This document shows, piece by piece, positions 42,333 through 61,386 of a stretch of 64,000 nt of DNA (position 1 is its first letter; each line of letters starts with the position of its first letter). The stretch comes from Actinomycetota bacterium (GTDB lineage Bacteria; Actinomycetota; Thermoleophilia; RBG-16-64-13), in NCBI GenBank assembly GCA_012523095.1, contig JAAYJE010000048.1:1-64000 (forward strand). The letters are read 5' to 3'. Made by a program: the position numbers and the translations under genes. The notes beneath the pieces are model-generated. The model did not search any database, had not been told where the DNA came from, and worked only from the letters and a program-made list of their open reading frames with translations.

Positions 42333-42626
42333 ACGTCGCGCTGGGGACGTCGTGGAAGCGGCACAACCAAGGTCGCCGACGGGTCCCGTCCGGCGGAACG
42401 CGGTCTGAATGAGCGGAACGAAGAGAGCGGGCCTCGCCGGTCGGAACGGCGATTTCCCGTTCGACGGCGTAATAGTGTACAGTTAGAATGACTTCATGCC
42501 TTCTTCGAATGGAGTTGCGATTCGCGATGCCGGGTCGCTTTTGTGCCGAACACCCAGTTCTCGATGCTCATGCGCGTGTCTCTTGGGCAATCGGACCGGG
42601 CAGACCAATGATGTGGAGGTAATTTA
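42333..42626. other. Intergenic region before the aromatic pathway
   Basis: About 294 bases with no gene. A possible -10 TAGAAT (42484-42489), with weak -35 TTCGAC 18 bases upstream, would give a leader of about 130 bases before the BKACE gene. No clear operator palindrome is seen. Confidence 0.3.
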
Positions 42627-43457
42627 ATGGAGAAGCTGATCATCACCGTAGCGTGTACGGGGGCTATGACCACCAAAGAGAACACCCCCTATCTGCCGAC
42701 CCAGCCTGAGGAGATCGCCGAAGAGGTCCGCATGGCCTACGAATGCGGAGCCACGGTCGCTCATGTGCATGTGCGCACCGTTGATGATAAGGCCACCATG
42801 GCTCTCGACAGGTTCGAAGAGACCGTCGGTCTGATCCGTGAGAGAGTACCGGACATCATCATCAACATGACCTCGTCCGGCGGTCTCGGCTTCGGCGACG
42901 AAGAGCGCATCCTGCCCCATACCGTGCTCAAGCCCGACATGGGTACGTTCGACGCCGGTTCCATGAACTTCTACAAAGGGGTGTTCTTGAACAGCCCCAT
43001 CTTCCTGGAGAAGTTGGGCAAGGCCTATATCGAGAACGGCATCAAACCGGAGGTTGAAGTCTTCGACGCCGGCATGGTATGGAATGCCAAGCGCCTACTG
43101 AAGGACGGCTTTCTGCAGGCTCCCATCCACTTCCAGTGCTGCATGCACGTGCATGGTGGCATGGAAGGCACGCCGCGTAACCTGGTGCACCTGGTCGACT
43201 CGTTCCCCGAAGGGTCCACTTGGTCGGCCTTCGGTTGCGGACCTACCGCCGATGTCATCATGGCTATGGCCATGACCATGGGGGGTCATATCCGAGTCGG
43301 TATGGAGGACAACGTCTATCTGAGCAAGGGTGTGCTTGCCGAACACAACTACCAGTTCGTCGAGAAAGTCGTGAAACTGGCCGATATCTTCAAGCGGCCG
43401 GTGGCGAACGTGGACGAGGCTCGGCAGATCCTCAGCCTGCCACCCAAAAAGAAATAA
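42627..43457 (+). CDS. BKACE-family beta-keto acid cleavage enzyme, probable triacetate acetoacetate-lyase
   Basis: 276 residues of the beta-keto acid cleavage (DUF849) family, which uses acetyl-CoA to cleave beta-keto acids. Zn ligands His46 and His48 in VAHVHVR have the same numbering as the lysine-fermentation Kce enzyme; a further Glu is in VGMEDN. The start LIITVACTGAMTTKENTP and NMTSSGG are typical. With a reductase, a dehydrogenase and a cyclohydrolase-family gene alongside, the best fit is triacetate (3,5-dioxohexanoate) acetoacetate-lyase of phloroglucinol breakdown, releasing acetoacetate and acetoacetyl-CoA. Family is certain; the substrate is inferred from context. A terminator follows. 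Confidence 0.87.
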   Translation: MEKLIITVACTGAMTTKENTPYLPTQPEEIAEEVRMAYECGATVAHVHVRTVDDKATMALDRFEETVGLIRERVPDIIINMTSSGGLGFGDEERILPHTVLKPDMGTFDAGSMNFYKGVFLNSPIFLEKLGKAYIENGIKPEVEVFDAGMVWNAKRLLKDGFLQAPIHFQCCMHVHGGMEGTPRNLVHLVDSFPEGSTWSAFGCGPTADVIMAMAMTMGGHIRVGMEDNVYLSKGVLAEHNYQFVEKVVKLADIFKRPVANVDEARQILSLPPKKK

Positions 43458-43465
43458 GGTGTCTT

Positions 43466-43495
43466 ACGGTCGGGGGCAAACCCCCGACCGTTTCA
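43466..43495 (+). terminator. Hairpin after the BKACE gene
   Basis: An 11-bp stem ACGGTCGGGGG / CCCCCGACCGT (43466-43476, 43481-43491) with a CAAA loop and a short TTTC tail, 9 bases after the stop codon. It separates the lyase gene from the cupin-SDR-dehydrogenase-cyclase unit. Confidence 0.75.
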
Positions 43496-43608
43496 CATAG
43501 CCCGTGCGCGAGGCGGGTGCCGGGGTGAGTCTTCTGGTGCGCCGGAGCCTCACGCCGGGTTGTCCAATCGACATCGCGACGAGAGTCGCCGGACGCAGGG
43601 AGTGGAGA

Positions 43609-43950
43609 ATGAAGAAGGTCTCAATCAGTGAAGCAGTGCAGTATTTCCCGCCCGCGCACAACGATTGCGCCTGCTTCAGGCTGCAGGGCAAAGACGCGAC
43701 GGGGATCACCCAGTTCTCCCTAGGTTGCACGCATTTCCTGCCGGGCGGTGGCGCTGATTTCAGCCCCGACCGGCCGTTCGATACCATTTACTTCGTCATA
43801 GAAGGCGAGGTGACCATCATAGACAAAGATAACAATGAGATAACACTCAAGAAGTATGACTCCATCTACATCCCGCCGAACGAAGGCCGCGCCATCAAGA
43901 ACAAGACCCAGTTCCCCGCCAGCATGATGGTGATCCTGGGAGTGGCCTAG
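43609..43950 (+). CDS. Small cupin lacking canonical metal histidines
   Basis: 113-residue cupin barrel (TIYFVIEGEVTIIDKDN, YDSIYIPPNEGRAIKN). The usual first cupin motif G-x5-HxH-x3-4-E is replaced by GGGADFSPDRPFDTIYFVIEG, with no HxH, so it is unlikely to hold a metal in the standard way. The start at 43609 has a GGAG site; the frame is open 105 bases upstream but through the preceding terminator region. It lies at the head of the SDR/dehydrogenase/cyclase genes. It could bind a pathway intermediate, help an isomerisation, or regulate; no function is established. Confidence 0.75.
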   Translation: MKKVSISEAVQYFPPAHNDCACFRLQGKDATGITQFSLGCTHFLPGGGADFSPDRPFDTIYFVIEGEVTIIDKDNNEITLKKYDSIYIPPNEGRAIKNKTQFPASMMVILGVA

Positions 43951-44013
43951 GCGCCCGAACCTACCGCGGGAGGACCTCGCGGACAACAACCAACCCGATT
44001 CTGGAGGTACGAA

Positions 44014-44820
44014 ATGGCTGAAGAAACACCGAGGAAGACAGTCGAAGAACTTAGGAAGATCTTCGATCTGACCGGTAAGGTGGCCGTGGTCACCGGCGCG
44101 GGCGGGACCTTGGGCCACGCTCTCGCCAAAGGCCTTGGCGTCTTCGGCGCCGACGTCGCCTGCTGGGACATCAAGACCGACATCATGGAAGATGTGGTGG
44201 CCGACATCAAAGGTCTGGGCAAGAAGTCCACCGCGACCGCCGTCAACGTCACTGATGACGCGAGCGTCAAAGCCGCCATGGATCAGGTCGTCAAGGATTT
44301 CGGTCAATGCAACATCATGGTCACCGTGGCCGGTACGGCCGGCAACCGCCAGTCTGCCGAGACCTTTGATATAGACGAGTGGCAGAAAGTCATGGACGTC
44401 AATGTGCGCGGCACCATGCTGTGCGCAAAACACGCGGGGGCGCAGTACGTCGCTCAAGGTAACGGCGGCAAGGTTATCACCATCGGTTCAGTGCGCGGCT
44501 TCCTCGGGCATCCCGGCGGGTATGCGGCCTACGGCACATCCAAGGGCGCCGTCCACCTGCTCACCAAGCAGCTGGCCACAGAGTGGGCCAAGTACAAGAT
44601 CAACGTCAACGCCATCGCGCCCTCCATCTTCTGGACGCCGCTCACACAGCAGGTGCGTGACAACCCCGAGATGGTCAAGATCTTCATGGCGCGCATCCCG
44701 ATGGGCCGCGCCGCCGAGCTGGACGACTTCATCGGCGCGTGCGTGTATCTCGCCTCACCTGCATCTGACTACGTCACCGGGCTCATCCTCTCCGTGGACG
44801 GCGGGGCGGTGGCCGGATGA
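44014..44820 (+). CDS. SDR reductase, probable phloroglucinol reductase
   Basis: 268-residue classical SDR with TGAGGTLGHALA (27-38), VAGTAGN, catalytic Ser159 in TIGSVRG and Tyr173/Lys177 in AYGTSKG, ending ILSVDGGAVAG. In the context of transhydroxylase, cyclase and BKACE genes, the likely reaction is NADPH reduction of phloroglucinol to dihydrophloroglucinol. The known phloroglucinol reductases of Eubacterium and Clostridium are also SDR enzymes. Its stop overlaps the next start by ATGA. Substrate assignment is by context. Confidence 0.85.
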   Translation: MAEETPRKTVEELRKIFDLTGKVAVVTGAGGTLGHALAKGLGVFGADVACWDIKTDIMEDVVADIKGLGKKSTATAVNVTDDASVKAAMDQVVKDFGQCNIMVTVAGTAGNRQSAETFDIDEWQKVMDVNVRGTMLCAKHAGAQYVAQGNGGKVITIGSVRGFLGHPGGYAAYGTSKGAVHLLTKQLATEWAKYKINVNAIAPSIFWTPLTQQVRDNPEMVKIFMARIPMGRAAELDDFIGACVYLASPASDYVTGLILSVDGGAVAG

Positions 44821-45776
44821 TGAAGCTGGAAGACGTCAAGAAGATCGCCATCATCGGTGGCGGCAACATGGGCCACGGCTGCGCCATGGTCTTTGCCGGC
44901 GCCGGGTACCCGGTCGGGCTCTACAGCCGCAGGGCGGAGACTCTTGAGAAGGCGGTCGTGGGCATGCGCGACGACCTGACGTTCCTCGCGGAACGCGGTC
45001 TGGGCAGGCTCGAAGACGTCGAGGCGACCGTGGGTCTCGTCAAGACCACGCAGGATATGGAAGAAGCGGCCGCAGACGCCGACTTTGTCCTCGAATGTGT
45101 GGCCGAGGACATGACTCTCAAGCAGGATATCTTCCAGAAGCTCGACCAGATGTGCAGGCCGGAAGCGATCCTGGCTACCAACACGTCGGTCATGAGCCCC
45201 ACCGAGATCGCGAGCACATCCGAGCGCCGCGAGAGGATTCTGGGGACCCACTGGTGGAATCCGCCGTTCCTCATCCCGTTGGTCGAGGTCGTGCAGACTG
45301 AAGAGACCCCGCAGTGGGTCATCGACGTGACCATGGACCTGCACTGGAAGATCGGGAAGCACCCGGTGCACGCTAAGAAGGACGTGCCGGGTTTCATAGC
45401 CAACCGCCTCCAGCACGCTCTGTGGCGTGAGGCCATCTCCATCGTGGAACGTGGCATCGCCGACCCGGCCACCGTGGACGAGAGCTTGAAGTTCGGTCCC
45501 GGTCTGCGCCTGCCGGTCATGGCTCCTCTGGAGAACGCCGACCTGGTGGGTCTTGATCTCACCTACTCCATCCACAGCTACGTCCTCAGACACCTTGAGG
45601 ACTCCCACGAACCCTCCGCGCTCCTCAAGGAGAAGGTGGACAAGGGCGAGTTGGGTTTCAAGTCTGGTGGAGTCGGTTTCCAGACTTGGACACCGGAGCA
45701 ACAGAAAGCGCTTCGCGCCAATATGCTGGACTATCTGTGCAAGGCCGTTCGGGAGATGAGAGAGAAGGACGAATAA
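44817..45776 (+). CDS. 3-Hydroxyacyl-CoA dehydrogenase-like enzyme, probable 3-hydroxy-5-oxohexanoate dehydrogenase
   Basis: 319 residues; the two-domain 3-hydroxyacyl-CoA dehydrogenase/carnitine dehydrogenase fold. The NAD motif is IAIIGGGNMGHGCA (10-23), with the family's ECVAED, and the catalytic His145 in GTHWWNPPFLIPLVEV. The C-terminal helical domain has PGFIANRLQHALWREA. Free-acid-acting members are often beside BKACE genes (as in carnitine breakdown). Here the fit is oxidation of 3-hydroxy-5-oxohexanoate to triacetate. It is coupled to the SDR gene. Confidence 0.85.
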   Translation: MMKLEDVKKIAIIGGGNMGHGCAMVFAGAGYPVGLYSRRAETLEKAVVGMRDDLTFLAERGLGRLEDVEATVGLVKTTQDMEEAAADADFVLECVAEDMTLKQDIFQKLDQMCRPEAILATNTSVMSPTEIASTSERRERILGTHWWNPPFLIPLVEVVQTEETPQWVIDVTMDLHWKIGKHPVHAKKDVPGFIANRLQHALWREAISIVERGIADPATVDESLKFGPGLRLPVMAPLENADLVGLDLTYSIHSYVLRHLEDSHEPSALLKEKVDKGELGFKSGGVGFQTWTPEQQKALRANMLDYLCKAVREMREKDE

Positions 45777-45879
45777 CGGAGTATCATTGATCAGACACGG
45801 TTCGCCGTGTCCGAGGACAAGCCGGGTCTCCGAGCCCGTCAGTCAGTAGAGCAACGAAAGAAGGAGATGAAGAAGGATC

Positions 45880-46875
45880 ATGGGGAAAGTCTGGGTTGAC
45901 CTTACACATCCGTTCAGTGCTGAGATTCCTCGTTGGCCGTATTTCGTGAAGCCGGTCATCGATTCCATGCACACCATGGCCAAGGGCGGCGTTCTCACGC
46001 AGCGTGTCGACTGTGTCCAGCACACCGGCACCCATGCCGACGCTCCTCGCCACGTCATGGAGCGTGAGTTCGACGGCCGTCGGGCTCGTTACACTCATGA
46101 GATGCCTGTCGACGCCTATACGGGCGACGCAGTCTGCCTCGAGATCAAGATCCATCCGTGGGGCCTGATCCTGCCTGAGCATCTTGAAGACGCGTGCGAA
46201 AGGGCGAATATCAAGCCGTCAGAGCTCAAGGGCATGGTCGTGTGTCTGAACACCGGCATGCATCGCCTATTCGACGATTCCAAGGCGTACTACCATTACT
46301 CTAGCGGCACCGGTATCGAGGCCGGCAAGTGGTTTGTGAAGCAGCAGGTCAAGTGCGTGGCCATGGACTCCCAGGCCCTCGACCACCCGCTCCATACCGC
46401 CATGGGCAAGAACGGCCCGCCCATGATGAACCTGCGCGGCGCCACCGGCAAGCCGATCACGGAGGAATACGCCGAGAAGTTCGGTATCGAGGCCTACGCT
46501 GAGTTCGACAAAGAGGTCTACATCCAAGTCCATGGCAAGGAAGCGTACGACAAGAAGTTCGGCGAGCTCGAAGCCATCGGCCAGGAAGGCACCTGGGAAC
46601 CGTGCCACAAGTACATGCTGGGTCACGGCATCGTGGGCGTCGAGAACCTCGGTGGTGACCTGGACAAGATCACCAACCAGCGGTTCCGCTTCTACTGCTT
46701 CCCCATCCGTTGGTACATGGGCGATGGTTCCATGGTCCGCTGCGTAGCTGAGATCGACGAAGAGAAGGTCGACAAGAGCGTGCCGGATCGCACCTACACC
46801 TACTGCGGCACCGGCTACGGCCCGGTCGGGGATGAGAAGTACGACATCTACCCGATGGCCGACCCGACCAAGTAG
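45880..46875 (+). CDS. Cyclase-family metal hydrolase, probable dihydrophloroglucinol cyclohydrolase
   Basis: 331 residues of the cyclase/kynurenine-formamidase superfamily. The metal-binding signature HTGTHADAPRH (48-58) is complete. It is longer than kynurenine formamidases (about 210) and has extra C-terminal sequence (FRFYCFPIRWYMGDGS). The superfamily includes the C-C-cleaving dihydrophloroglucinol cyclohydrolase of Clostridium scatologenes, which opens the ring to 3-hydroxy-5-oxohexanoate. The flanking genes make this the best reading. It lies 103 bases after the dehydrogenase gene and ends at a strong terminator. Confidence 0.85.
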   Translation: MGKVWVDLTHPFSAEIPRWPYFVKPVIDSMHTMAKGGVLTQRVDCVQHTGTHADAPRHVMEREFDGRRARYTHEMPVDAYTGDAVCLEIKIHPWGLILPEHLEDACERANIKPSELKGMVVCLNTGMHRLFDDSKAYYHYSSGTGIEAGKWFVKQQVKCVAMDSQALDHPLHTAMGKNGPPMMNLRGATGKPITEEYAEKFGIEAYAEFDKEVYIQVHGKEAYDKKFGELEAIGQEGTWEPCHKYMLGHGIVGVENLGGDLDKITNQRFRFYCFPIRWYMGDGSMVRCVAEIDEEKVDKSVPDRTYTYCGTGYGPVGDEKYDIYPMADPTK

Positions 46876-46931
46876 GACTCCAACTCGCGCTCGTTGAGAG
46901 CGACGCGGTTGCGGCGAGAGACGCTGCATCG

Positions 46932-46972
46932 AGCCCCCCGCCGGCGAATGCCGGCGGGGGGCTACGTTTTTG
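46932..46972 (+). terminator. Rho-independent terminator after the cyclohydrolase gene
   Basis: A 13-bp perfect stem (46932-46944 with 46951-46963), loop CGAATG, then ACGTTTTTGG. It closes the cupin-SDR-dehydrogenase-cyclase transcript. Confidence 0.88.
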
Positions 46973-47277
46973 GGGCGCGTGCAACGGCATAAGGCATCTG
47001 GCGTGTAGCCGTTTGGCAGGACTGACAGAGTGCTGCATGGCGGTATCTGGTTCCGCAATACGAGATAATGAGGAAATGCGGGCCGACGTATCCGCGGTTG
47101 CGCCGAGAGGTGCCGTAGATTATCAGGTGGAAGAGTCCTAGAATCTAGACAGGCCGGGTCGTACGTACGATCTGAGGTCGGGATTCCAGTTGGATGGCAA
47201 CCCTCGTAGGTCAGTCTTCGGTTCAGCAAATACTTGCATGGGAGTGCGTACCCGCAACAGATAAGGAGATACGAGGA
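46973..47277. other. Upstream regulatory region of athL
   Basis: About 305 bases without a gene. It contains a perfect 12-bp palindrome TCGTACGTACGA at 47159-47170 and an imperfect CTAGAATCTAG at 47139-47149, both possible operator sites. The ribosome site AAGGAG is near 47262. No copy of the IclR-type GGAATA-n2-TATTCC palindrome is present here. Confidence 0.45.
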
Positions 47278-49902
47278 ATGGGCGAAGTAGTGCGCATGAC
47301 GAACTCGTCGACCGGTGGGCCGGTGTTCGTCTACGTGGAGGACGGCAAGATCATCAGGATGACCCCGATGGATTTCGACGACGCGGTGGACGCGCCGTCT
47401 TGGAAGATCGAGGCCCGCGGCCGGACCTTCAGCCCGCCGCGTAAAACCACGGTCATGCCGTTCACAGCCGGGTTTAAGTCGATGATCTATACCGACAGAC
47501 GGAACATGTACCCGATGATCCGCGAAGATTTCGATCCCAACGGGGCCCCGGGTTCGACCGGGCCCGGCGGCCGGAACATCCAGAACCGCGGCAAGTCCGG
47601 CTACAAGAGGATCAGCTGGGATGAGGCCACCGACATCCTTGTGAGTGAGGTGAACCGGATCAAGCGCTCGGACGGCCCCGCGGCCATTTGCGCCGAACCG
47701 AGCTCTCACCACATGTGGGGCAATGTTGGCTACCGGCACAGCACCTTCTTCCGCTTCATGAACATGATGGGCTTCACATACGCCGACCACAACCCAGACA
47801 GCTGGGAAGGCTGGCACTGGGGCGGCATGCACATGTGGGGGTTCAGCTGGCGCCTTGGCAACCCCGAGCAGTACGATCTTCTCGAGGACACGCTGAAGCA
47901 CTCCGAGATGATCGTCTTCTGGTCTTCCGACCCGGATGGTACGGGTAACTTCTACGGCGGATATGAGTCCAGCATCCGCCGGAAGTGGATGAAAGAACTG
48001 GGGATCAAGATGGTGTTCATCGATCCCTTTTTCAACCACACGGCCAACCTGATAGGCGATAAATGGCTATCGCCTAAGATAGGCACGGACCACGCTCTCT
48101 CCTTCGCCATCGCCTACACGTGGTTGACTGAGGGTACGTACGACAAAGAGTACGTCGCCACGCATACCGTGGGGTTCGAAGAGTGGTCCGACCACGTGCT
48201 CGGCAAAGATGACGGGATTCCCAAAACCTGCGAATGGGCCGAAGGGGAATCGGGCGTGCCGGCCTGCGAGATCAGAGCGCTGGCCCGCGAATGGGCGAAG
48301 AAAAAGACTATGTTGGCCGCCGGTGGACTGGGCGGCTGGGGCGGCGCATGCCGGGCGTCTCATGGCATCGAGTTCGCTCGGGGCATGATCGCGCTCGCCA
48401 CCATGCAGGGCATGGGCAAACCCGGATCGAACATGTACTCGACCACGCAGGGCGCCCCGCTTGATCCCGATTTCTACTTCCCGGGCTACGCTGAGGGCGG
48501 CATCTCCGGCGACTGCGAGAACTCCGCCGCCGGCTTCAAGCTCGCGTGGAGGATGTTCGACGGCAGAACCACCTTCCCGTCGCCGTCCAACATCAACACC
48601 AGCGCCGGCCAGCACATCCCGCGTCTCAAGATCCCGGAATGCATCATGGACGGGCACTTCGAGTGGCACGGCAAGGGCTTCTGCGGCGGGGATATTCAGC
48701 ATCAGTTGCATCCCTACACCTACCCCGCCCCGGGTTATCCGCGCATCAAGATGTACTGGAAATACGGCGGCCCGCACATCGGCACGATGACGGCCACCAA
48801 CCGCTACGCGAGGATGTACACGCATCCGAGTCTGGAATTCGTGGTCAGCCAGTCGATCTGGTTCGAGGGTGAAGTCCAGTTCGCGGACCTGATCCTGCCG
48901 GCCTGCACCAACTTCGAGCGATGGGACATCTCAGAGTTCGGCAGCTGCTCCGGGTACATCCCCGACACCTACCAGCTTGCCAACCACAGGGTCATATCCT
49001 TCCAGATGAAGTGCATCGAGCCGCTGGGGGAGAGCAAGTCCGACTACGACATCTACGCGATGATCGCCGAGAAGCTGGGCATCGGACAGCAATTCACCGA
49101 GGGCAAGACCGACCTTGACTGGGTGAGGCAGTACTACAACGCGACCGACATGCCCAAGTACATGACCTTCGACGAGTTCGCCAAGAAGGGCTACTTTGTG
49201 GTGCCTGACAATCCGAACCGTAAGAAGACCCCGGGTCTCCGCTGGTTCGCCGAAGATCGGGTGCGCGACACACCTGACTGGGGTCCGCGTCTCAACAACT
49301 CCGTCGGCGGCAAGGGCCTGCAGACCCCCAGCGGCAAAGTCGAGTTCATATCGAAGACCCTTACGAACTTCGAACAGCAGGGCTACGTCGATGAGTATCG
49401 TCCGGCCATGCACCGCTGGATCCCGGCGTGGGAAGGGCCGCGCTGCGAGCTTGCGAAGAAGTACCCGCTGGGCATGCTGTCCCCGCACCCTCGTTTCTCC
49501 TTCCACACCATGGGTGACGGTAAGGACACCTTCATGAACGACATCAAGGACCATCGGATGCTGGTGGACGGTTACTACTACTGGATCATCCGCATGAACA
49601 GCGTCGATGCAGCGGCCCGCGGCATCAAAGAGGGTGACCTGGTGCGTGTCTTCAACGACCGCGGCTCGGTGATTGTCGCCGCTCAGGTCGGTGAGAGGGT
49701 CCAACCGGGGACGGTGCACACATATGAGTCGTGCGCTGAGTACAATCCGCTCGGCACTCCCGGCAAGTCGGCCGATCGAGGTGGATGCATGAACATCCTC
49801 ACGCCTGATCGCTACATGTCGAAGTACGCGTGCGGCATGGCGCCCAACAGCGCGCAGGTGGATATAGAGAAGTGGGACGGCGGCATCTATGAGACCGCGT
49901 GA
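47278..49902 (+). CDS. athL: Pyrogallol-phloroglucinol transhydroxylase, large (Mo) subunit
   Basis: 874 residues, essentially the length of the Pelobacter acidigallici enzyme. It is a bis-MGD molybdoenzyme of the DMSO reductase family that moves an OH group from tetrahydroxybenzene to pyrogallol, giving phloroglucinol without net redox. The active-site residues known from the Pelobacter structure fall at the same numbers: His144, Tyr152, Asp174, Ser175 (Mo ligand, in HNPDSWEGWHW), Trp354, Tyr404 and Tyr560. Long blocks (WGNVGYRHST, GGLGGWGGACRASHG, CTNFERWDISEF) look near-identical to it. No N-terminal Fe-S motif or signal peptide. The ATG at 47278 gives the family start MGEVVRMTNSSTGG. It is followed by athS. 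Confidence 0.95.
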   Translation: MGEVVRMTNSSTGGPVFVYVEDGKIIRMTPMDFDDAVDAPSWKIEARGRTFSPPRKTTVMPFTAGFKSMIYTDRRNMYPMIREDFDPNGAPGSTGPGGRNIQNRGKSGYKRISWDEATDILVSEVNRIKRSDGPAAICAEPSSHHMWGNVGYRHSTFFRFMNMMGFTYADHNPDSWEGWHWGGMHMWGFSWRLGNPEQYDLLEDTLKHSEMIVFWSSDPDGTGNFYGGYESSIRRKWMKELGIKMVFIDPFFNHTANLIGDKWLSPKIGTDHALSFAIAYTWLTEGTYDKEYVATHTVGFEEWSDHVLGKDDGIPKTCEWAEGESGVPACEIRALAREWAKKKTMLAAGGLGGWGGACRASHGIEFARGMIALATMQGMGKPGSNMYSTTQGAPLDPDFYFPGYAEGGISGDCENSAAGFKLAWRMFDGRTTFPSPSNINTSAGQHIPRLKIPECIMDGHFEWHGKGFCGGDIQHQLHPYTYPAPGYPRIKMYWKYGGPHIGTMTATNRYARMYTHPSLEFVVSQSIWFEGEVQFADLILPACTNFERWDISEFGSCSGYIPDTYQLANHRVISFQMKCIEPLGESKSDYDIYAMIAEKLGIGQQFTEGKTDLDWVRQYYNATDMPKYMTFDEFAKKGYFVVPDNPNRKKTPGLRWFAEDRVRDTPDWGPRLNNSVGGKGLQTPSGKVEFISKTLTNFEQQGYVDEYRPAMHRWIPAWEGPRCELAKKYPLGMLSPHPRFSFHTMGDGKDTFMNDIKDHRMLVDGYYYWIIRMNSVDAAARGIKEGDLVRVFNDRGSVIVAAQVGERVQPGTVHTYESCAEYNPLGTPGKSADRGGCMNILTPDRYMSKYACGMAPNSAQVDIEKWDGGIYETA

Positions 49903-49949
49903 GCTGAAGATATCGATCGATCTTGTGTGATCAGCAAGGAGCTTGCGAG

Positions 49950-50831
49950 ATGAAGCAATGGTATAAGGTTATAGACGTCGCCCTGTGCCACGACTGCAAC
50001 AACTGTTTCATGGCCGACAAGGACGAGTTCGTCGACAACGACTGGCCGGGATACACGGCTCCCCAACCTCGCCACGGACATCGTTGGATCGATGTCCGAC
50101 GGCGCGAGCGCGGGACCTACGCGCGCGTTGACGTTGCGTATCTGCCCCTGCTATGCCAGCAGTGCCAGAACGCGCCGTGCGAGGAAGCCGGCAACGGTGC
50201 GGTGTACAGACGGCCTGACGGTATCGTTATGATCGACATGGAGAAGGCCAAAGGCCGGAAAGACCTGGTCGACTCCTGTCCATACGGCGTGATGTGGTGG
50301 AACGAGGAAGCCCAGCTTCCTCAGAAGTGCATCCTTTGCGCCCACCTACTCGACGACGCCACCTGGCAGGCGCACACCACCCGGTGTGCCCACATCTGTC
50401 CGAACGTGGTGATGAAGACCTACTTCATCGAGCCGGAAGAGATGGAGAAGATGATCGTGGACGAGGGGCTGGAGGTCTATCTTCCGGAACTCGGGACCAA
50501 ACCGAATGTTCTGTACAAGAATCTCCATCAGTACACGAAGAACTTCATCTCCGCGGGCGTGCTCGTCGACGGGGACTGCTACGAAGGCGCGACTGTGACC
50601 CTCCGCTCGAAAGAAGGCGGTATCGCCTGCACGTTGTCCGGCGCCGGGGTGGCGAATTGTGAGGACACCTCGATTCTGGCGACGCGCACCACCAACTTCT
50701 TCGGGGAGTTCAAGTTCGACGGTCTGAACAACGGAGAGTACACGCTGGAGGTCGACGCCGGAGGCAGGAAGCACTCATCCACTGTCACCGTCGACGACCA
50801 GTCGCTTAACCTCGGGTTCATAGAACTCTAG
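49950..50831 (+). CDS. athS: Pyrogallol-phloroglucinol transhydroxylase, small (Fe-S) subunit
   Basis: 293 residues: a ferredoxin-like part with several [4Fe-4S] sites, then a C-terminal beta-sandwich (AGVLVDGDCYEGATVTL ... FFGEFKFDGLNNGEYTLEVD). Cys-rich blocks are CHDCNNC, LLCQQCQNAPC, DSCPYG, KCILCAHLLDD and RCAHICPN. The first motif reads Cys13-x2-Cys16-x2-Cys19-x3-Asp23, where a fourth Cys is expected. An insertion around GIACTLSGAGVANCEDTS, in the C-terminal domain, makes it about 20 residues longer than Pelobacter AthS. It starts 47 bases after athL; AAGGAG precedes the ATG. A terminator follows. Confidence 0.93.
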   Translation: MKQWYKVIDVALCHDCNNCFMADKDEFVDNDWPGYTAPQPRHGHRWIDVRRRERGTYARVDVAYLPLLCQQCQNAPCEEAGNGAVYRRPDGIVMIDMEKAKGRKDLVDSCPYGVMWWNEEAQLPQKCILCAHLLDDATWQAHTTRCAHICPNVVMKTYFIEPEEMEKMIVDEGLEVYLPELGTKPNVLYKNLHQYTKNFISAGVLVDGDCYEGATVTLRSKEGGIACTLSGAGVANCEDTSILATRTTNFFGEFKFDGLNNGEYTLEVDAGGRKHSSTVTVDDQSLNLGFIEL

Positions 50832-50857
50832 GCGAGAGTTGTTCCGGCCGAGCAGCT

Positions 50858-50898
50858 GTGGAGGGCTTTGGACGCCAAAGCCCTCCACGTTCTCTTTT
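50858..50898 (+). terminator. Rho-independent terminator after athS
   Basis: A 14-bp stem GTGGAGGGCTTTGG / CCAAAGCCCTCCAC (50858-50871, 50875-50888) with loop ACG and tail GTTCTCTTTT. Confidence 0.88.
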
Positions 50899-50929: not shown

Positions 50930-51487
50930 GTGAGACAGATCGTGATCTTCAACGGCTCCCCCCGCATGGACGGGAACACTGCGACTCTACTCAATCTGGT
51001 GGCCAGAGGGGCCAGAGAAGCCGGCGCCGAGGTGCACTTCCACACTCTTTTCAAGATGAAGTTCATGGCCTGCCAGAGCTGTTTCTCCTGCCGGATCAAC
51101 GACGATTGCGTCATCAACGACGAAGTGCACGCGGCGCTCCAGCAGGTGAAGACAGCCGACGCCGTCGTCATCGGGTCTCCTATCTACATGATGCAGATGA
51201 CCGGTCCGGTGAAGAATCTCATCGACAGGTTCTTCCCGTTGACCGACGCGGACTGGCGGCCGCGGTTCGGGACCAAGAAGATGGTGGCCGTATATACACA
51301 GGGCATGGATGATCCCCATCTGTATGAGTCGTACTTCGAGTACACGGCCGCCGTCTTCCCATGGTTCGGCTTCGATCTGGTGGAGACTATCGTCTGTACC
51401 AACGCCAACGACCCCGAGTCCGCGGAGCGCGACGCCGCCTTGAAGATCCGCGCCTATGAGGTGGGCCGGCGTCTGGCGCTTGACTAG
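50930..51487 (+). CDS. Flavodoxin-fold NAD(P)H-dependent oxidoreductase
   Basis: 185 residues with the FMN-binding loop FNGSPRMDGNT (7-17), a Cys set typical of iron-sulfur flavoproteins and related FMN reductases (Cys48, Cys51, Cys54, Cys60 in ACQSCFSCRINDDC), and GSPIYMMQMTGPVKNLIDRF. GTG start with GGAAGGG upstream. It lies between the two transhydroxylase-type operons. It may supply or remove electrons for the molybdoenzymes or reduce quinonoid intermediates; this is context only. Confidence 0.87.
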   Translation: MRQIVIFNGSPRMDGNTATLLNLVARGAREAGAEVHFHTLFKMKFMACQSCFSCRINDDCVINDEVHAALQQVKTADAVVIGSPIYMMQMTGPVKNLIDRFFPLTDADWRPRFGTKKMVAVYTQGMDDPHLYESYFEYTAAVFPWFGFDLVETIVCTNANDPESAERDAALKIRAYEVGRRLALD

Positions 51488-51558: not shown

Positions 51559-52395
51559 ATGAGGGGGCCGATGGCGCGGACGGGCGGCAGACGGAGGGGG
51601 AGCGGGCGGTCCGGCCCGGAGGAGGACGGCGACCTGTTCGTCCGGGCCCTCGCTCGGGGTCTCAGCATCTTGGCCCTGTTCGACGTGGAGCATCCCGAGT
51701 GGGGGCTGAACGCGGTCACGGATAGCACCGGTCTGTCGAAGACGACCGCCTACAGGATGCTGCGCACGCTCGAGGCGCGAGACTTCCTGGTGTACGACCC
51801 GAAGACCGAGCGCTATCATCTGGGCGGAGCGATGTTCCCAGCGGCCTATCTGGCTATGTCCTATGTGGGGTTTGTGCGTGCCGCACGCCCCTTCTTGGAA
51901 CGGCTGGGCCGGACGACGGGCGAGATGGTGGAGCTGACAGTGGGGAGCGCTGAGGGCGCTGTTGTAGTCGACGAGGTTCCGACCACCAATCCGTTCAGGC
52001 TCAACCGCCCCACGGGCCGGATCCTGAGTAGTCTGGGGAACTCGTCCTTCCGACTCCACGTGGCCCACCGTCCTCAGGCCGAACAGAGAAGGATCGTGGA
52101 AACCTTCCAGAACCAGTCGACTCCGAGCAGCCTCGCCCACCCCGAACAGGTCATGCGCCGCCTCGCGGGCGAGAAAGAGGCGGGCCTGGCCTTTGATCTA
52201 GAGGAGCAGGACCAAGGCGTGTGTGCGGTATCCGCTCCCATTCTCGAACGTGATGGGAGTCTGAAGGCTGTGGTCACCATCATCGCGCCGGCCGAGCGTT
52301 TCGGTGCACGGTCAAGGCGGGTGAAAGTGGAGGCGCTCAGAAGCACAGTAGCGGAGATGACGAAGCACCTGGCCGAGAGGGCTTCTAAGGGTTGA
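51559..52395 (+). CDS. IclR-family transcriptional regulator
   Basis: 278 residues with an N-terminal winged helix-turn-helix (ALARGLSILALFD, LNAVTDSTGLSKTTAYRMLR, TLEARDFLVYD) and a C-terminal effector domain (YVGFVRAARPFLERLGRTTG, VGSAEGAVVVDEV, GVCAVSAPILERDGSLKAVV). IclR proteins commonly sense aromatic acids or their ring-cleavage products. It is flanked by two near-identical palindromes, one before itself and one before the second molybdoenzyme operon, arguing that it regulates both. An ATG 12 bases downstream with AGGGGG close by is an alternative start. Confidence 0.92.
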   Translation: MRGPMARTGGRRRGSGRSGPEEDGDLFVRALARGLSILALFDVEHPEWGLNAVTDSTGLSKTTAYRMLRTLEARDFLVYDPKTERYHLGGAMFPAAYLAMSYVGFVRAARPFLERLGRTTGEMVELTVGSAEGAVVVDEVPTTNPFRLNRPTGRILSSLGNSSFRLHVAHRPQAEQRRIVETFQNQSTPSSLAHPEQVMRRLAGEKEAGLAFDLEEQDQGVCAVSAPILERDGSLKAVVTIIAPAERFGARSRRVKVEALRSTVAEMTKHLAERASKG

Positions 52396-52490: not shown

Positions 52491-55112
52491 ATGGCAGAGG
52501 ACCGAGCCCCTCAGGGGAGATCGGGCGAAAAGACGCTGGTGCGTGATATCAGTTTTTGCGGAGTGCCGGAGAACGGCTCGAACGCATCCATGGTGGATGT
52601 GAAGGACGGCAAGATCATCCGCATCCGCCCGATGCACTACGACTGGAAGTACGATCCCGAGAAGCACATGAACCCCTGGAAGATGGAAGTGCGGGGGAGC
52701 AGTTTCGAGCCGAGCATGAAGACGCTCATCCCGCCTTACTCCATCGCGTACAAAAAGAGGGTGTACTCGCCGGCCCGTATCCGCTACCCCATGAAGCGGG
52801 TCGATTGGGATCCGAACGGTGCCCCCGGCTCCACCGGCCCCGGTGGTCGCAACACTCAGAACCGCGGCAAGAGCAAGTATGTGCGGATCTCCTGGGACGA
52901 GGCACTTGACACCATCGTCGGCGAGATGAACCGCATCAAAGAGACGTACGGACCGACCGCCCTTCTCTACCAGTGTGACCAACACGGCGAACAGAAGATA
53001 GTGCAGGCCTGTCACGGTGCCGGTCGCAAGCTGCTCCCGCTTTGGGGCGGCTACACGCTGCAGATCCGGCAGCCCGACAGCTGGGAAGGCTGGTGGTGGG
53101 GCAGCAAGCACTTCTGGGGGTGCGAGCCGGTCGGCCAGGGCAAGCAGAGCAATCTACTCTACGACGTAGCCAAGAACTGCGAGCTGCTCCTATTTTGGGG
53201 GTGTGATCAGGAGACCACGCCTTGGGGATGGCAGGGCCAGCTCCCCAGTCGACTATCCTATTGGTATACGGAGCTCGGCATCAAGCAGATCTACGTATGT
53301 CCCGATCTCAACTACGCGGCAGCCGTGCACGCCGACCGTTGGATCCCCGTGCTGCCCAACACCGACGCGGCCCTGTACCTGGCCATCACCTATTGGTGGT
53401 TCAAGCACGGCACCTATGACAAGGAGTACCTCAAGACCCACGCCGTGGGGGTGGAGGCCTACGAGGCCTATGTCATGGGCGACGAAGACGGCATAGCTAA
53501 GACTCCAGAGTGGGCGGAGCCCATCTGCGGGGTTCCCGCCCGCGTCATCAAGGCGCTGGCGGAGGAGTGGGCATCCAAGCGCACCAGCGTGGTCATCGGC
53601 AACGGCGGTCCCGGCATCCGCGGCCCGTACGCCACCGAGCCCGCCCGTCTGCAGAACATCTGTCTTGCCATGCAGGGCCTAGGCAGGCCGGGTGTCAACC
53701 AGGTGAAGATGATCGAGTGGGGCCTGTTCGACTTCCCCGATCAGTACGCCCAGCCCAGGCCGCTCCGCGTACCCAACCTACGCACGGCATACACCGGCGG
53801 CCACCCCTCGGACACGAACCACCCGTCGCTGCCCAAGACGTATGTGCCCAAGGCCATCCTCGAGGGTAAATGCGACTGGTGGGGTTGCGAGTCCGAGACG
53901 GCTCCGCGTGAGGACCAATTCGTGCACCGGTTCTATCCGGCGGAGGGTTGCTCTAAGATCCACGCCGTCTGGACCGACTCGCCGTCTTGGATCACCTGCT
54001 GGAACTCCGGCAACGACTACGTCCGGGCCATGCAGCATCCCGACATCGAGTTCATGTGGGCTCAGCACCCGTGGCTGGAGAACGACGCCCTCTTGGCCGA
54101 CATCATACTGCCGGTCAACACCAAGCTCGAAGAGGACGACATCGCCGCAGACATCTTCAGCGGCCAGTACAACCTGCTTTTCCCCGAGCAGAAGTGCATC
54201 GAGCCGCTGGGCGAGTCATACAGCGACTACGAGATCGTATGCATGCTGGCCGACAAGCTGGGTCTTCTCGAGGAGTATACCGGCGGGAAGAGCATCCCCG
54301 AGCTCATCAAGTACGGCTACGAGACCTCCCGTTGCGCCGACCTTATCAGTTGGGAAGAGTTGAATGAGAAGGGCTACTTGGTCATCCCGACGGCCGACAA
54401 CTGGGAGGACGAACCGGCCGGCTTCCAGAAGTTCTACGAAGATCCCAAGGCCAATCCGCTCACCACTCCCACGGGACTCCTGGAGTTCGAAGCGACGGGC
54501 TTGAAGGAGAACTTCCCCGACGATGTCGAGCGTCCTGCGGTGCCCAAGTGGATACCTCAGGGCATCAGTCACGAGGAGACCGTAGGCACTGAGCGGTCCA
54601 AGAAGTATCCATTTCTTGTGTGCTCCAATCATCCACGCTGGAGTGTCCACTCGCAGCACGAGGACATCACCTGGTTGCGTGAGATCCCCACCTGTAAGAT
54701 CACCGGGCCCGACGGGTATCAATACCATCCGGTCTGGCTGCACCCGGCGACGGCAGAGGACCGGGGGATCAAGGACGGCGATGTGATCACCATATACAAT
54801 GAGCGCGGCGCTGTGCTCGGCGCGGCCTATGTGACCGAGCGCATCATGCCCGACGTCATCTATATGGACCACGGAGCCAAATGGGATCCCATCGAGCCCG
54901 GCGTCCTCGACCGGGGCGGGGCCATAAACACCATCGTCCCGCGGAATACCACCTCGAAGAACGCGGTAGGCCACGCCGTAAGCGGCTTTCTCGCCGACGT
55001 TGAGAAGACCGACTTGGCGGCGCTCAAGAATAAATATGGAGACGCCTTCGAAAAGCCCTTCCACCCCTGCGCGGGTCCGGGTCTCGAGGCCTGCATCATA
55101 GGGGAGGCGTGA
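52491..55112 (+). CDS. Transhydroxylase-like bis-MGD molybdoenzyme, large subunit (substrate unknown)
   Basis: 873 residues, clearly related to AthL: shared blocks are WDPNGAPGSTGPGGRN, NRGKSKYVRISWDEALD, QPDSWEGWWWG (Asp196-Ser197, matching the Mo-ligand Asp174-Ser175) and QKCIEPLGESYSDYEI. His165 matches AthL His144. Other pocket residues differ: AthL GGWGGACRASHG (Trp354) is GIRGPYATEP here, and the Tyr560 region is shortened. It therefore probably acts on a different phenol, as resorcinol hydroxylase, hydroxyhydroquinone transhydroxylase and catechol dehydroxylases do within this family. No Tat signal or N-terminal Fe-S site is visible. Expression is probably IclR-controlled through the palindrome upstream. 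Confidence 0.88.
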   Translation: MAEDRAPQGRSGEKTLVRDISFCGVPENGSNASMVDVKDGKIIRIRPMHYDWKYDPEKHMNPWKMEVRGSSFEPSMKTLIPPYSIAYKKRVYSPARIRYPMKRVDWDPNGAPGSTGPGGRNTQNRGKSKYVRISWDEALDTIVGEMNRIKETYGPTALLYQCDQHGEQKIVQACHGAGRKLLPLWGGYTLQIRQPDSWEGWWWGSKHFWGCEPVGQGKQSNLLYDVAKNCELLLFWGCDQETTPWGWQGQLPSRLSYWYTELGIKQIYVCPDLNYAAAVHADRWIPVLPNTDAALYLAITYWWFKHGTYDKEYLKTHAVGVEAYEAYVMGDEDGIAKTPEWAEPICGVPARVIKALAEEWASKRTSVVIGNGGPGIRGPYATEPARLQNICLAMQGLGRPGVNQVKMIEWGLFDFPDQYAQPRPLRVPNLRTAYTGGHPSDTNHPSLPKTYVPKAILEGKCDWWGCESETAPREDQFVHRFYPAEGCSKIHAVWTDSPSWITCWNSGNDYVRAMQHPDIEFMWAQHPWLENDALLADIILPVNTKLEEDDIAADIFSGQYNLLFPEQKCIEPLGESYSDYEIVCMLADKLGLLEEYTGGKSIPELIKYGYETSRCADLISWEELNEKGYLVIPTADNWEDEPAGFQKFYEDPKANPLTTPTGLLEFEATGLKENFPDDVERPAVPKWIPQGISHEETVGTERSKKYPFLVCSNHPRWSVHSQHEDITWLREIPTCKITGPDGYQYHPVWLHPATAEDRGIKDGDVITIYNERGAVLGAAYVTERIMPDVIYMDHGAKWDPIEPGVLDRGGAINTIVPRNTTSKNAVGHAVSGFLADVEKTDLAALKNKYGDAFEKPFHPCAGPGLEACIIGEA

Positions 55113-55113
55113 G

Positions 55114-55947
55114 ATGGGCAAAGTACTCGTTATCAACTACGATATCTGCAACGGCTGCTACAACTGTCAGATAGCCTGCAAGGACGAGCATGTGGTCAAC
55201 GATTGGTCGCCCATCGCCAAGCCTCAGCCGGACACAGGGCAATTCTGGAACAAGGTCTACGACAATGTGCGCGGCCAGGTGCCGAAGGTGATGATCACTT
55301 ACGAGCACAGCATCTGCCAGCACTGCGATGAGGCTCCGTGTATCGCGGCCTGCAATGCGCACGCCATCTACAAGCGGCCGGACGGCATCGTGATCATCGA
55401 TCCCGACAAGTGCCTGGGCAATAGGATGTGTATCGCGGCCTGTCCGTATGAGAACGTCATCTACTTCAACGATGCCCTCAACATAGCCCAGAAGTGCACC
55501 TTCTGCGCTCACCTCCTTGATGATGGATGGAGCGAACCGCGGTGCGTGGACGCCTGCCCGACCGGGGCCTTCACGTTCGGCGACGAAGACGATCCTATGA
55601 TCAAGGAGCTCATCGCCAAGGCGGAGCTGTTGAAACCCGAACTGGCCCATGTCAAGCCTCGGGTCTACTACATCGGCCTGCCAAAGAAGTTCATAGCCGG
55701 CGCGGTGTTCGACAAGGAGGCCGACCTCTGCCTGGAGGGCGTGACCGTCACCGCCGTCAACGCCGAGTCGGGCGAGGAGACCCGGGTAACAAGTGACGGC
55801 TACGGAGATTTCTGGCTACGTGGCCTCAAGGATGGTGTGTACACTCTTACGATAGAGAAGCCGGGCTACCTGGCTCAGAAGCACGGACCGGTGGACGTGA
55901 CCCAGAAAGACCTCAACGTAGGCGATATCGCTTTGTGGAAAGCTTGA
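55114..55947 (+). CDS. Fe-S small subunit of the second transhydroxylase-like enzyme
   Basis: 277 residues, AthS-like: polyferredoxin part plus a C-terminal carboxypeptidase-regulatory-like beta-sandwich (AGAVFDKEADLCLEGVTV ... GVYTLTIEKPGYLAQ). Unlike the neighbouring AthS, the first motif is complete (Cys12, Cys15, Cys18, Cys22 in CNGCYNCQIAC). The others are CQHCDEAPCIAAC, CLGNRMCIAACPYE, CTFCAHLL and CVDACPTGAF, enough for four [4Fe-4S] clusters. It begins 1 base after the large-subunit stop. A full electron wire suggests a net redox reaction (hydroxylation or dehydroxylation) rather than a pure OH transfer; this is inference. Confidence 0.9.
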   Translation: MGKVLVINYDICNGCYNCQIACKDEHVVNDWSPIAKPQPDTGQFWNKVYDNVRGQVPKVMITYEHSICQHCDEAPCIAACNAHAIYKRPDGIVIIDPDKCLGNRMCIAACPYENVIYFNDALNIAQKCTFCAHLLDDGWSEPRCVDACPTGAFTFGDEDDPMIKELIAKAELLKPELAHVKPRVYYIGLPKKFIAGAVFDKEADLCLEGVTVTAVNAESGEETRVTSDGYGDFWLRGLKDGVYTLTIEKPGYLAQKHGPVDVTQKDLNVGDIALWKA

Positions 55948-56239
55948 GAGACCAAACGATCTCTTGTACAGGCCTTGACCCCCTGGGCCCGCTCCCCCCG
56001 CGGGCTCAGGGGTCAGGCGCAGTAAGGGCGGGTGCGGCTCGACTGCGCGAGCAAGGCGTGGAAGGGCTGGCGGTATGTTGCTAGTATGCAGCGGGTTGAA
56101 GTGCCCGCACAGAGCATTGCCTGCTGGATGGCTCGACCGGAATGACTCACGCGGGAGGTGCCTTGACTTGGATCATTGAGTGAGGGGCAGGAGCGGCGTA
56201 TCATCCGATCTGCGGAGGAGAGCATGCGAAAGGAGCATC
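55948..56239. other. Intergenic region with GC-rich hairpin
   Basis: 292 bases. A long imperfect stem (55976-55991 with 56001-56015; TGACCCC... / ...GGGGTCA) lies 28 bases after the small-subunit stop and probably ends that transcript, though no T-run follows. The rest, before the binding-protein gene, shows no clear operator. Confidence 0.5.
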
Positions 56240-57739
56240 ATGGCGGATGAGGACAGGAATATCAGAGACGATGAATACCAGAGTGCGGCGGAAGGCAAGA
56301 CGGTCAGTCGCCGCGATTTCCTCAAGATGGCCGGAGTCGCCGGAGCGGCGGTCGGTCTTGCGGGCGGCCTGGGCGGCCTAGTCGCTGCGTGCGGCGACGA
56401 CGAAGAACCGGCGACCACCACGGCGGGGGCCGAGACCACCACCACGGCGGGGGCCGAGACCACCACCACGGCTGCGGGCGAGACGACGACCACCGCGAGC
56501 GCGGGAGCGGAGATGGGCCGCGAGGTCAAGATCGGCTTCGTCACGCCGCTGACCGGCGGGATCGCCTCCTTCGGCGTACCCGATCAGTACTGCGCGGACA
56601 GGGCCAAGGAGGCCATCGGGGACGGAATCGTCTGCGGTGACAACAAGAAACACCCGGTGACGATCGTTGTGCGCGACAGCCAGTCCGACACCAACCGGGC
56701 GGCGCAGGTGACGGGCGACCTCATCACACAGGATAATTGCGACATCATCGTGACGGCGTCCACTCCGGATACAGTCTGCCCGGTGGCCGATCAGGCCGAG
56801 GCACTGCAGACCCCCTGTCTGTCGAACGACTGTCCGTGGCAGGCGTACGTAGCCACGCGCGCGGCTGGCGATATGAACGCGACCTTCAAGTGGACCTACC
56901 ACACTTTCTGGGGCCTAGAGGATGTGGTGGCCAACTTCGTCGACATGTGGAGCCAGGTGACCACCAACAACAAGGTCGGGTGCGTGTGGTCCAACGACGC
57001 CGACGGCCAGGCCTGGAAAGAGGGCTGGGCTTCCGCGTACGAGGCGGCTGGGATTACCGCCGTTATTCCGGGCGATTTCCAGCTCCAGACTGAGGACTTC
57101 ACCAGCCAGATTGCGCAATTCAAGGCTGAAGGCTGCGAGTTGGGTCTGGGTATCTTCATCCCGCCGGACTTCACCAACTTCTGGAAGCAGGCCGCTCAGC
57201 AGGGCTGGAGGCCCAAACTGGCCAGCTTCGGGAAGGCCCTGCTCTTCCCGGAGTCGGTTGAGTCGGTGGGTGAAGTGGGTAACGGTCTGACCACTGAGGT
57301 CTGGTGGACGCCGACCCATCCGTTCACGTCGCCGCTCACCGGTGAGACCTGCCAGGAGTTCGCCGATGAGTACTCAAGGCGACATAATGACGCGCAGTGG
57401 ACTCAACCGTTGCTGCACTTCATCATCTTCGAGTGGGCCGTCGACGTGCTCAAGCGGACATCCGACGTGGATGATAAGGAAGCCATAATGGCGGCTGTCA
57501 AGACCACCAAGATGGATACCATAGGCGGCCACATCGACTTCTCTGCTCCGGTCGAGGCCGGTCCTCCGTGGACCCCGGGACCGCGTCACGTGCACGAGAA
57601 CGTCTACAAGACGCCGCAGGTCGGTGGTCAGTGGCGCACGGGCACCAAGTACCCGTACGAATTGACCATAGTCAGCACCGCGGCGGTGCCCCCCGAGCTG
57701 GGCATCAAGGTCGCCGATAAGGTGCAGCCGCTCTCTTAA
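56240..57739 (+). CDS. Tat-exported substrate-binding lipoprotein, Liv type
   Basis: 499 residues. It has a twin-arginine signal SRRDFLKMAG (23-32) ending in a lipobox-like LVAAC (Cys51), so it is probably exported folded and lipid-anchored. A Thr-rich linker with repeated TTTAGAE units follows, then a type I periplasmic-binding fold starting VKIGFVTPLTGGIASFGVPD. Tat export is unusual for this family and may mean cofactor or fast folding. It heads the second Liv-type transporter, right after the second molybdoenzyme operon, so an aromatic ligand is plausible. AAAGGAG precedes the ATG; a tatA gene lies 5 kb downstream. Confidence 0.92.
   Translation: MADEDRNIRDDEYQSAAEGKTVSRRDFLKMAGVAGAAVGLAGGLGGLVAACGDDEEPATTTAGAETTTTAGAETTTTAAGETTTTASAGAEMGREVKIGFVTPLTGGIASFGVPDQYCADRAKEAIGDGIVCGDNKKHPVTIVVRDSQSDTNRAAQVTGDLITQDNCDIIVTASTPDTVCPVADQAEALQTPCLSNDCPWQAYVATRAAGDMNATFKWTYHTFWGLEDVVANFVDMWSQVTTNNKVGCVWSNDADGQAWKEGWASAYEAAGITAVIPGDFQLQTEDFTSQIAQFKAEGCELGLGIFIPPDFTNFWKQAAQQGWRPKLASFGKALLFPESVESVGEVGNGLTTEVWWTPTHPFTSPLTGETCQEFADEYSRRHNDAQWTQPLLHFIIFEWAVDVLKRTSDVDDKEAIMAAVKTTKMDTIGGHIDFSAPVEAGPPWTPGPRHVHENVYKTPQVGGQWRTGTKYPYELTIVSTAAVPPELGIKVADKVQPLS
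56413..56475 (+). repeat. Short tandem repeat coding a Thr-rich linker
   Basis: Units near ACCACCACGGCGGGGGCCGA (21-base period) repeat in tandem and degrade further downstream. They encode ETTTTAG-type linker between the lipid-anchored Cys and the binding domain. Confidence 0.7.
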
Positions 57740-57773
57740 TCGATACGGCTACACCGGTCGGACATCGTGGTTC

Positions 57774-57820
57774 ATGGCGTTGTTGTCTGAGGCGTTCTGT
57801 GCCTCGGGCAACAACGCCAT
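57774..57820 (+). terminator. Hairpin after the Tat-exported binding-protein gene
   Basis: ATGGCGTTGTTG with TGAGGC (57774-57793) pairs with GCCTCGGGCAACAACGCCAT (57801-57820), leaving a small internal mismatch. No U-tract follows, so it may protect the mRNA 3' end or cause partial termination before the ATPase genes. Confidence 0.5.
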
Positions 57821-57925
57821 CCCTACAACGGCGGCCGAGGCATGAGCCGATGATCATGCGCCTTCTTGACCTGAATCGGTCGAGTGTGAAATGCTAGAGA
57901 CCTGCGTGATGGGATCATTCCGGGC

Positions 57926-57956
57926 TTGACCCTACCGCTGAGAGCTCCAGTACAGT
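57926..57956 (+). promoter_or_regulatory. Candidate promoter for the second transporter ATPase genes
   Basis: TTGACC (57926-57931) and TACAGT (57951-57956) have 19-base spacing and lie 40 bases before the ATG at 57996. It matches 5/6 and 4/6 consensus positions, but the spacing is long. Confidence 0.3.
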
Positions 57957-57995
57957 GAGGAAGGGATACAGGGTGATCCACGGAGGTACACACTT

Positions 57996-58724
57996 ATGAC
58001 GACGGCTCTCGAGACCCAAGACCTGCGCAAGGCCTTCGGCGGGGTCCTGGTGATCGACGATCTTAGCATCAACGTAGACACGGGAGAGGCACTGGGTATC
58101 GTGGGCCCCAATGGAGCCGGCAAGACCACGTGGTTCAACCTGATCACCGGCACTGTGCGCCCTGATGCCGGCAAGGTCGTCTTTCTTGGAAGGGATATCA
58201 CGAACCTCTCCAGGCACGAGCGTTGCCGTGAGGGGATAGGTCGCACCTTCCAGATACCAAGACCATTCTCCGGCATGACGGTATTTGAGAACGTGCTTGT
58301 GGGCGCTACTCACGGCCGGAGGATGGGGGAGCGGGCGTCATACGAACGCTGCATCGAGATCCTCGAATGGACCGGGCTGATGGGGAAAGTGAACGTCCTC
58401 GCCGGCACGCTCACACTGCTTGACCGTAAGCGTCTAGAGCTGGCTCGGGCTCTTGCCACCGACCCGCAGGTGCTACTCATGGACGAGATCGCGGGCGGTC
58501 TTACCCAGGCGGAGGTGGAGGCGCTGATCGAGGAGATCAAGGCATTGCGTGCGCAGACCGGTATCACGATCGTCTGGATAGAGCACGTTGTGCATGCACT
58601 CCTCGCTGTGGTCGACCGCATCGTGGTCATCAACTTCGGGCGGAAGCTCTGCGAGGGCGAGCCCAGGGAGGTCATGAACAGTCAGGAGGTTCAGGCCTGT
58701 TATATGGGAGGTACGCCGGCATGA
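57996..58724 (+). CDS. livG: Liv-type ABC transporter ATPase, LivG family
   Basis: 242 residues. Walker A is GPNGAGKTT. The signature region is degenerate (AGTLTLLDRKRLELARAL, typical of LivG), with Walker B VLLMDEIAGGLTQAE and H-loop WIEHVV. DEIAGG replaces the usual DEPxxG. GGAGG precedes the ATG. The gene order here (binding protein, ATPases, then permeases) differs from the first transporter, so the two are independent acquisitions rather than a recent duplication. Confidence 0.92.
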   Translation: MTTALETQDLRKAFGGVLVIDDLSINVDTGEALGIVGPNGAGKTTWFNLITGTVRPDAGKVVFLGRDITNLSRHERCREGIGRTFQIPRPFSGMTVFENVLVGATHGRRMGERASYERCIEILEWTGLMGKVNVLAGTLTLLDRKRLELARALATDPQVLLMDEIAGGLTQAEVEALIEEIKALRAQTGITIVWIEHVVHALLAVVDRIVVINFGRKLCEGEPREVMNSQEVQACYMGGTPA

Positions 58725-59419: not shown

Positions 59420-59421
59420 TT

Positions 59422-61367: not shown

Positions 61368-61386
61368 GACTGAGTGCGGCGTGCAT

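Follow-up and report, generated by a model that had tools for sequence, protein, structure and literature searches.

Does one locus of an uncultured actinobacterium encode the whole anaerobic route from pyrogallol, via phloroglucinol, to acetoacetate? The fate of plant phenols in peat, sediment, and gut, where they may or may not persist, hinges on anoxic ring cleavage, and an earlier note on this DNA had proposed such a route from five enzyme families lying together: BKACE, SDR, a 3-hydroxyacyl-CoA-dehydrogenase-like (3HCDH-like) protein, a cyclase-type hydrolase, and the AthL/AthS transhydroxylase. The locus lies in the window, that is, the whole stretch of 64,000 nucleotides that was analyzed, on contig C153 of a host genome (G000) of 2.54 Mb in 161 contigs (93% complete). 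Judging from sequence, we consider it very probable that the locus encodes anaerobic pyrogallol/phloroglucinol degradation, which would extend a known route to an uncultured anaerobic Actinomycetota lineage.

Locus layout and predicted route

All five families are present where the earlier note had placed them, on the plus strand and with strong family matches. The gene content and order are established: BKACE, cupin, SDR, 3HCDH-like dehydrogenase, cyclase, AthL, and AthS, followed 3′ of athS by genes for a flavoprotein and an IclR regulator and then by another AthL/AthS-like pair and an ABC transporter. The BKACE, a predicted triacetate acetoacetate-lyase (TAL; 42627-43457; PF05853, 321 bits), has a ribosome-binding-site-like GGAGG, read directly, 7 bases 5′ of its ATG (42615-42619), and between it and the SDR lies a small cupin of 113 residues (43609-43950; PF07883). 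The gene of the SDR, a predicted phloroglucinol reductase (44014-44820; PF13561, 185 bits), overlaps by 4 bases with that of the 3HCDH-like protein, a predicted 3-hydroxy-5-oxohexanoate dehydrogenase (TfD; 44817-45776; 3HCDH_N, 192 bits), and the PF04199 cyclase, a predicted dihydrophloroglucinol cyclohydrolase (DPGC), follows at 45880-46875 (103 bits). The large subunit of pyrogallol-phloroglucinol transhydroxylase, AthL, is encoded at 47278-49902 (PF21423/PF00384/PF01568) and its iron-sulfur small subunit, AthS, at 49950-50831. Further 3′ on the same strand are an NADPH-dependent FMN reductase-like flavoprotein (50930-51487; PF03358), an IclR-type regulator (51559-52395; PF09339/PF01614), a second AthL-like molybdoenzyme, AthL2 (52491-55112), with a second AthS-like iron-sulfur subunit, AthS2 (55114-55947), a branched-chain-type ABC transporter comprising a binding protein, two ATPases, and two permeases (56180-61367), which is possibly an aromatic uptake system, and a second IclR-type regulator (61312-62277).

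The earlier note had the pathway genes directly preceding athLS, and they do adjoin it on the same strand, but the cupin, the AthLS2 pair, and the transporter had been missed. Two transcription units are likely because strong intrinsic terminator-like hairpins sit 3′ of the cyclase (46932-46963; 14-bp stem then a T run) and 3′ of athS (50857-50889; 15-bp stem), athLS probably being a unit separate from the predicted five-gene operon. The gene set recurs in 10 further members of the class.

In the route predicted from these genes, AthLS would convert pyrogallol to phloroglucinol by hydroxyl transfer, which the SDR would then reduce to dihydrophloroglucinol, NADH being the probable cofactor. The cyclase, of the manganese type, would then hydrolyze the ring in a retro-Claisen reaction to give 3-hydroxy-5-oxohexanoate, which the 3HCDH-like enzyme would oxidize to triacetate, probably with NADP+, and the BKACE, using acetyl-CoA, would cleave triacetate to acetoacetate and acetoacetyl-CoA. 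Elsewhere the host genome encodes two 3-oxoacid CoA-transferase pairs, by which acetoacetate can be activated, as well as thiolases, which together would complete the route to acetyl-CoA; it also encodes a phloretin-hydrolase-family protein, so that phloroglucinol could come from flavonoids as well. This series of intermediates, already proposed in the earlier note, agrees with residue-level and phylogenetic tests, with the qualification that the SDR falls outside the clade of the characterized reductase.

Homology and conserved residues of the pathway enzymes

AthL is 79% identical over its full length (1665 bits) to the large subunit of the crystallized Pelobacter acidigallici enzyme (PDB 4v4c-4v4e) and clusters with it in the tree at a support of 99-100, and AthS matches the small subunit (364 bits to 4v4c_B); the difference is that here the pair comes from an actinobacterial MAG and adjoins the genes for the later pathway steps. 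The athL reading frame is open from 47194, but the start was moved to ~47278 because residue 29 aligns to residue 1 of 4v4c. Ser175, which we take to be the Mo ligand, and H144, D174, W176, Y404, Y152, C557, and Y560, which we take to line the pocket, are all conserved; position 481 did not fit the reference sequence and was left out of this comparison. In a quick tree the P. acidigallici AthL nests inside actinobacterial AthL sequences, which suggests that the gene was transferred between phyla. The gut catechol dehydroxylases (eLife 2020, PMC7028382) are likewise bis-MGD molybdoenzymes acting on polyhydroxylated aromatics, but they form a separate clade near acetylene hydratase, whereas the AthL of this locus groups with the transhydroxylase. 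AthL2 shares 37% identity with the P. acidigallici large subunit; it has the Ser ligand and the His/Asp but lacks equivalents of Tyr404, Tyr152, and Cys557, and its active site is predicted to differ from that of AthL. Several relatives also have the AthL2/AthS2 pair next to the cluster, and plasmid relatives of AthL2 show 27-37% identity.

Comparison with the Clostridium scatologenes enzymes, whose four proteins are AKA68207, AKA68208, AKA68213, and AKA68216, was made via published residues and named relatives. The HTGTHADAPRH motif pointed out earlier in the cyclase was located at residues 48-58, which gives the protein the HxGTHxDxPxH metal motif, and W19/Y21 correspond to the substrate pair W20/Y22 of the ring-cleaving enzyme CsDPGC (Zhou et al. 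2023, PMC10470551). The protein is 68-82% identical to cyclases of clusters, for example those of Clostridium caldaquaticum and Acidaminobacter, in which the SDR shares 53-70% identity with the characterized reductase. Its structural model matches the folds of isatin hydrolase and kynurenine formamidase, with modest TM scores and low-confidence inserts in the model. We predict a manganese-type dihydrophloroglucinol cyclohydrolase. Two neighboring divergent PF04199 cyclases, 29-31% identical to that of the locus, were seen on another contig of the host (L043, G000:C144, 16161-17818). The W-P-S cyclases of Flavonifractor and relatives (L083-L096) were considered as gut counterparts and rejected, as they have neither Tyr22 nor an SDR or cupin nearby; they lie near thiolase, dehydrogenase, or BKACE genes and likely act on a different ring substrate.

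In the dehydrogenase, no Lys or Asn is found in the stretches that would correspond to the CoA-binding Lys56 and Asn221 of 3-hydroxybutyryl-CoA dehydrogenase. Its S124/H145/N196 correspond to the catalytic residues Ser122/His143/Asn194 of CsTfD (PMC10470551). The BKACE falls with a support of 100 inside a clade of 39 sequences made up of BKACEs from phloroglucinol clusters (the TAL clade), apart from the lysine enzyme Kce, its lineage forming a distinct branch within that clade. At the position of Kce Glu14 and CsTAL Trp16, the BKACE of the locus and its close relatives have Met (Met14) and not Trp, which is found in most members of the TAL clade and in G064, a genome of the host's genus.

The SDR is the weakest of the predicted assignments when taken alone. 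Its best PDB matches are gluconate-type dehydrogenases, and 5g4k, which we take to be the phloroglucinol reductase of Clostridium BAA-442, comes only fourth. In the tree it lies outside the clade of the characterized Clostridium reductase, an outcome that the earlier note had named as refuting, and belongs to a sister clade that also holds Rubrivivax, Moorella, and Desulfosporosinus. Four residues, G31, R161, Y170, and L210, occur without variation in every cluster SDR of both clades and in the BAA-442 reductase, and in none of three further SDRs used for comparison. The prediction of a phloroglucinol reductase was kept because of these four signature residues, the position in the operon, and a clade that includes Rubrivivax gelatinosus, a reported phloroglucinol degrader (Zhou et al. 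2023, PMC10470551).

From this homology and these conserved residues, which are established, we infer the substrates, and other substrates have to be weighed. The predicted five-gene operon may degrade a related meta-hydroxylated ring, such as a hydroxylated or alkylated resorcinol or a tetrahydroxybenzene, with phloroglucinol at best a side substrate. The separate SDR clade with its changed cofactor motif, Met14 in place of Trp, a host genome rich in AthL paralogues whose pockets are altered, and a related BKACE-cupin-SDR-dehydrogenase locus without cyclase in G028 (L184) would all fit such a ring; we nevertheless regard it as unlikely, in view of the SDR signature residues, the W/Y pair and high identity of the cyclase to those of canonical clusters, and the adjoining AthL so close to an enzyme that produces phloroglucinol. 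Some parts could still have other phenols as their true substrates, since about 12 more AthL-like genes occur in the genome, as do paralogues of the SDR, the dehydrogenase, and the BKACE. Somewhat less probable again is that the true reductase is another SDR of the genome and that the one in the locus is a second pathway dehydrogenase. The NADH-type D52 motif, the gluconate-type dehydrogenases ranking ahead of the reductase, and an SDR with an NADP-type motif on contig C140 speak for this, but it is the SDR of the locus that holds the canonical cupin-SDR-dehydrogenase-cyclase position and has all four signature residues, while the C140 SDRs lack Y170. A chance presence of BKACE and dehydrogenase from lysine fermentation (3-keto-5-aminohexanoate cleavage), to which the best solved structure (Kce, 2y7d) and the best NCBIfam model (a lysine-fermentation enzyme, below its cut-off) would point, is highly improbable given that the amino-group-binding Glu14 of Kce is Met here, that the BKACE clade is apart from Kce, and that the neighborhood with the cyclase is conserved across phyla.

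Cofactor motifs and the conserved cupin

Phloroglucinol degradation is the preferred reading, with cofactor use that is predicted to depart from the characterized system. The TR(S/N) motif of NADPH-dependent phloroglucinol reductase (Zhou 2023, PMC10470551) is absent from the SDR, which reads C-W-D52-I-K, of the NADH type. The motif lies where the second strand of the nucleotide fold ends. Among 57 loci, a few of which are duplicates, 46 have the Arg of the NADPH type at this position, and Asp, mostly as [CG]W-D-[IM]-K, occurs in 8, all from the host's class. The dehydrogenase of the same lineage reads S-R-[RK], of the NADP type (S-R-R in the locus), with the exception of G020, which reads D. 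If real, cofactor use in this lineage would be NADH in and NADPH out, the reverse of the preferences measured for C. scatologenes (PMC10470551). In one locus (L037, G058:C73, 12855-14432) two SDR genes lie side by side, one of the NADH type and one of the NADPH type.

The cupin appears to be a regular part of such clusters. Of the loci whose cyclase has W-P-Y-F, 35 have sufficient flanking sequence; an SDR is found in 33 of them, and 32 of these 33 also carry the cupin, most often directly 5′ of the SDR; in 19 loci with a W-P-S cyclase, neither SDR nor cupin was found (0/19 each). In the class, 11 of 399 genomes have the cyclase, and every one of these has the cupin. Five further genomes have the cupin without a close cyclase; in four of them (G038, G050, G237, and G311) the cluster is complete and its cyclase divergent (36-39%), and for the fifth (G097) no cluster was found in the stretch read. 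Fisher values for the co-occurrence are very low, though they take no account of common descent. The cupin is distributed across Actinomycetota, Bacillota, Chloroflexota, Acidobacteriota, Pseudomonadota, Verrucomicrobiota, Bacteroidota, and deltaproteobacterial lineages, and occurs on plasmids of Mycobacterium riyadhense and Novosphingobium. In Rubrivivax gelatinosus, too, its gene adjoins that of the SDR (L072, L073).

The invariant residues of the cupin include Y12, H17, FLPxGGA, Y61, E92, R94, and N98, and the usual metal-binding histidines are missing. The closest structure to its AF2 model (pLDDT 93.9) is the cupin TM1459, with RemF, a polyketide cyclase, also similar. Because the cyclase-free set in G028 (L184, G028:C148:1-12000), which lies next to tandem AthL2-type genes, has both cupin and SDR, the cupin seems to be tied to the SDR and not to ring cleavage. 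It goes unmentioned in Zhou et al. 2023 (PMC10470551), where four enzymes were sufficient in vitro, and is for that reason read as accessory; it is thus a conserved protein left out of the 2023 in vitro reconstitution, and no link between a cupin and phloroglucinol catabolism was seen among the papers that the literature search listed. Its context makes an accessory role in the reduction step most likely, tautomerase activity being our favored guess and not a result. The wider idea of a dedicated metal-free cupin at the reductase step, for example a keto-enol tautomerase giving the reductase keto-phloroglucinol, together with reversed cofactor use in this lineage, is tentative, and we would call it possible rather than probable.

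Distribution and AthL expansion

The earlier note had also called the whole route notable in an actinobacterium, which overstated its rarity, as the cluster was reported in 2023 from diverse bacteria including Mycobacterium (Zhou et al., PMC10470551) and AthL lies beside it in Bacillota, Chloroflexota, Deltaproteobacteria, and other Actinomycetota. Furthermore, MAGs of 13 phyla express phloroglucinol-degradation genes and undescribed actinobacterial genera express catechin-degradation genes (PMC12203004). The locus shares with the C. scatologenes cluster (PGR, DPGC, TfD, and TAL; PMC10470551) the same four enzyme families, the diagnostic residues of DPGC and TfD, a BKACE of the TAL clade, and an SDR with the reductase signature, and differs from it by the predicted NADH-type reductase and NADP-type dehydrogenase, the Met14 BKACE, and the adjoining AthLS and cupin. 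Another actinobacterial example, a plasmid of M. riyadhense (NZ_OY970457), combines BKACE, cupin, SDR, dehydrogenase, and cyclase with an IclR gene, but its proteins are divergent (about 30-40% identical) and AthLS is not nearby. What would be new here is the conservation of the cupin, the reversal predicted for the cofactors, and the expansion of AthL, all three unexpected and drawn from comparison.

With up to 16 scored candidates considered per genome, the AthL marker PF21423 has at least 13 listed matches in the host genome and from 8 to at least 16 in eight relatives, and no match in 382 of the 399 genomes of the class. AthL holders tested outside these relatives have 1-6 each, except an unrelated Dehalococcoidales MAG (G402, the genome of L067) with 11. 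Such a large transhydroxylase-like set suggests a lineage specialized on polyhydroxylated aromatics. In the host, AthL-like genes are found on contigs C153, C16, C134, C140, C15, C66, C45, C81, and C128.

In three loci (L030, L036, and L039) an AthS-like gene lies directly 3′ of the cyclase with no AthL beside it. A loss of AthL was considered and rejected for G028 and G040, where AthL homologues are found on other contigs (96% identical to AthL of the locus on C155 of G028, and 78% on C6 of G040). Contig C140 of the host (L007/L008, 40001-80000) carries a second locus in which AthL/AthS pairs and thiolases are joined by a BKACE and two sets of SDR and dehydrogenase, with no cyclase; it is probably a parallel route for another phenol.
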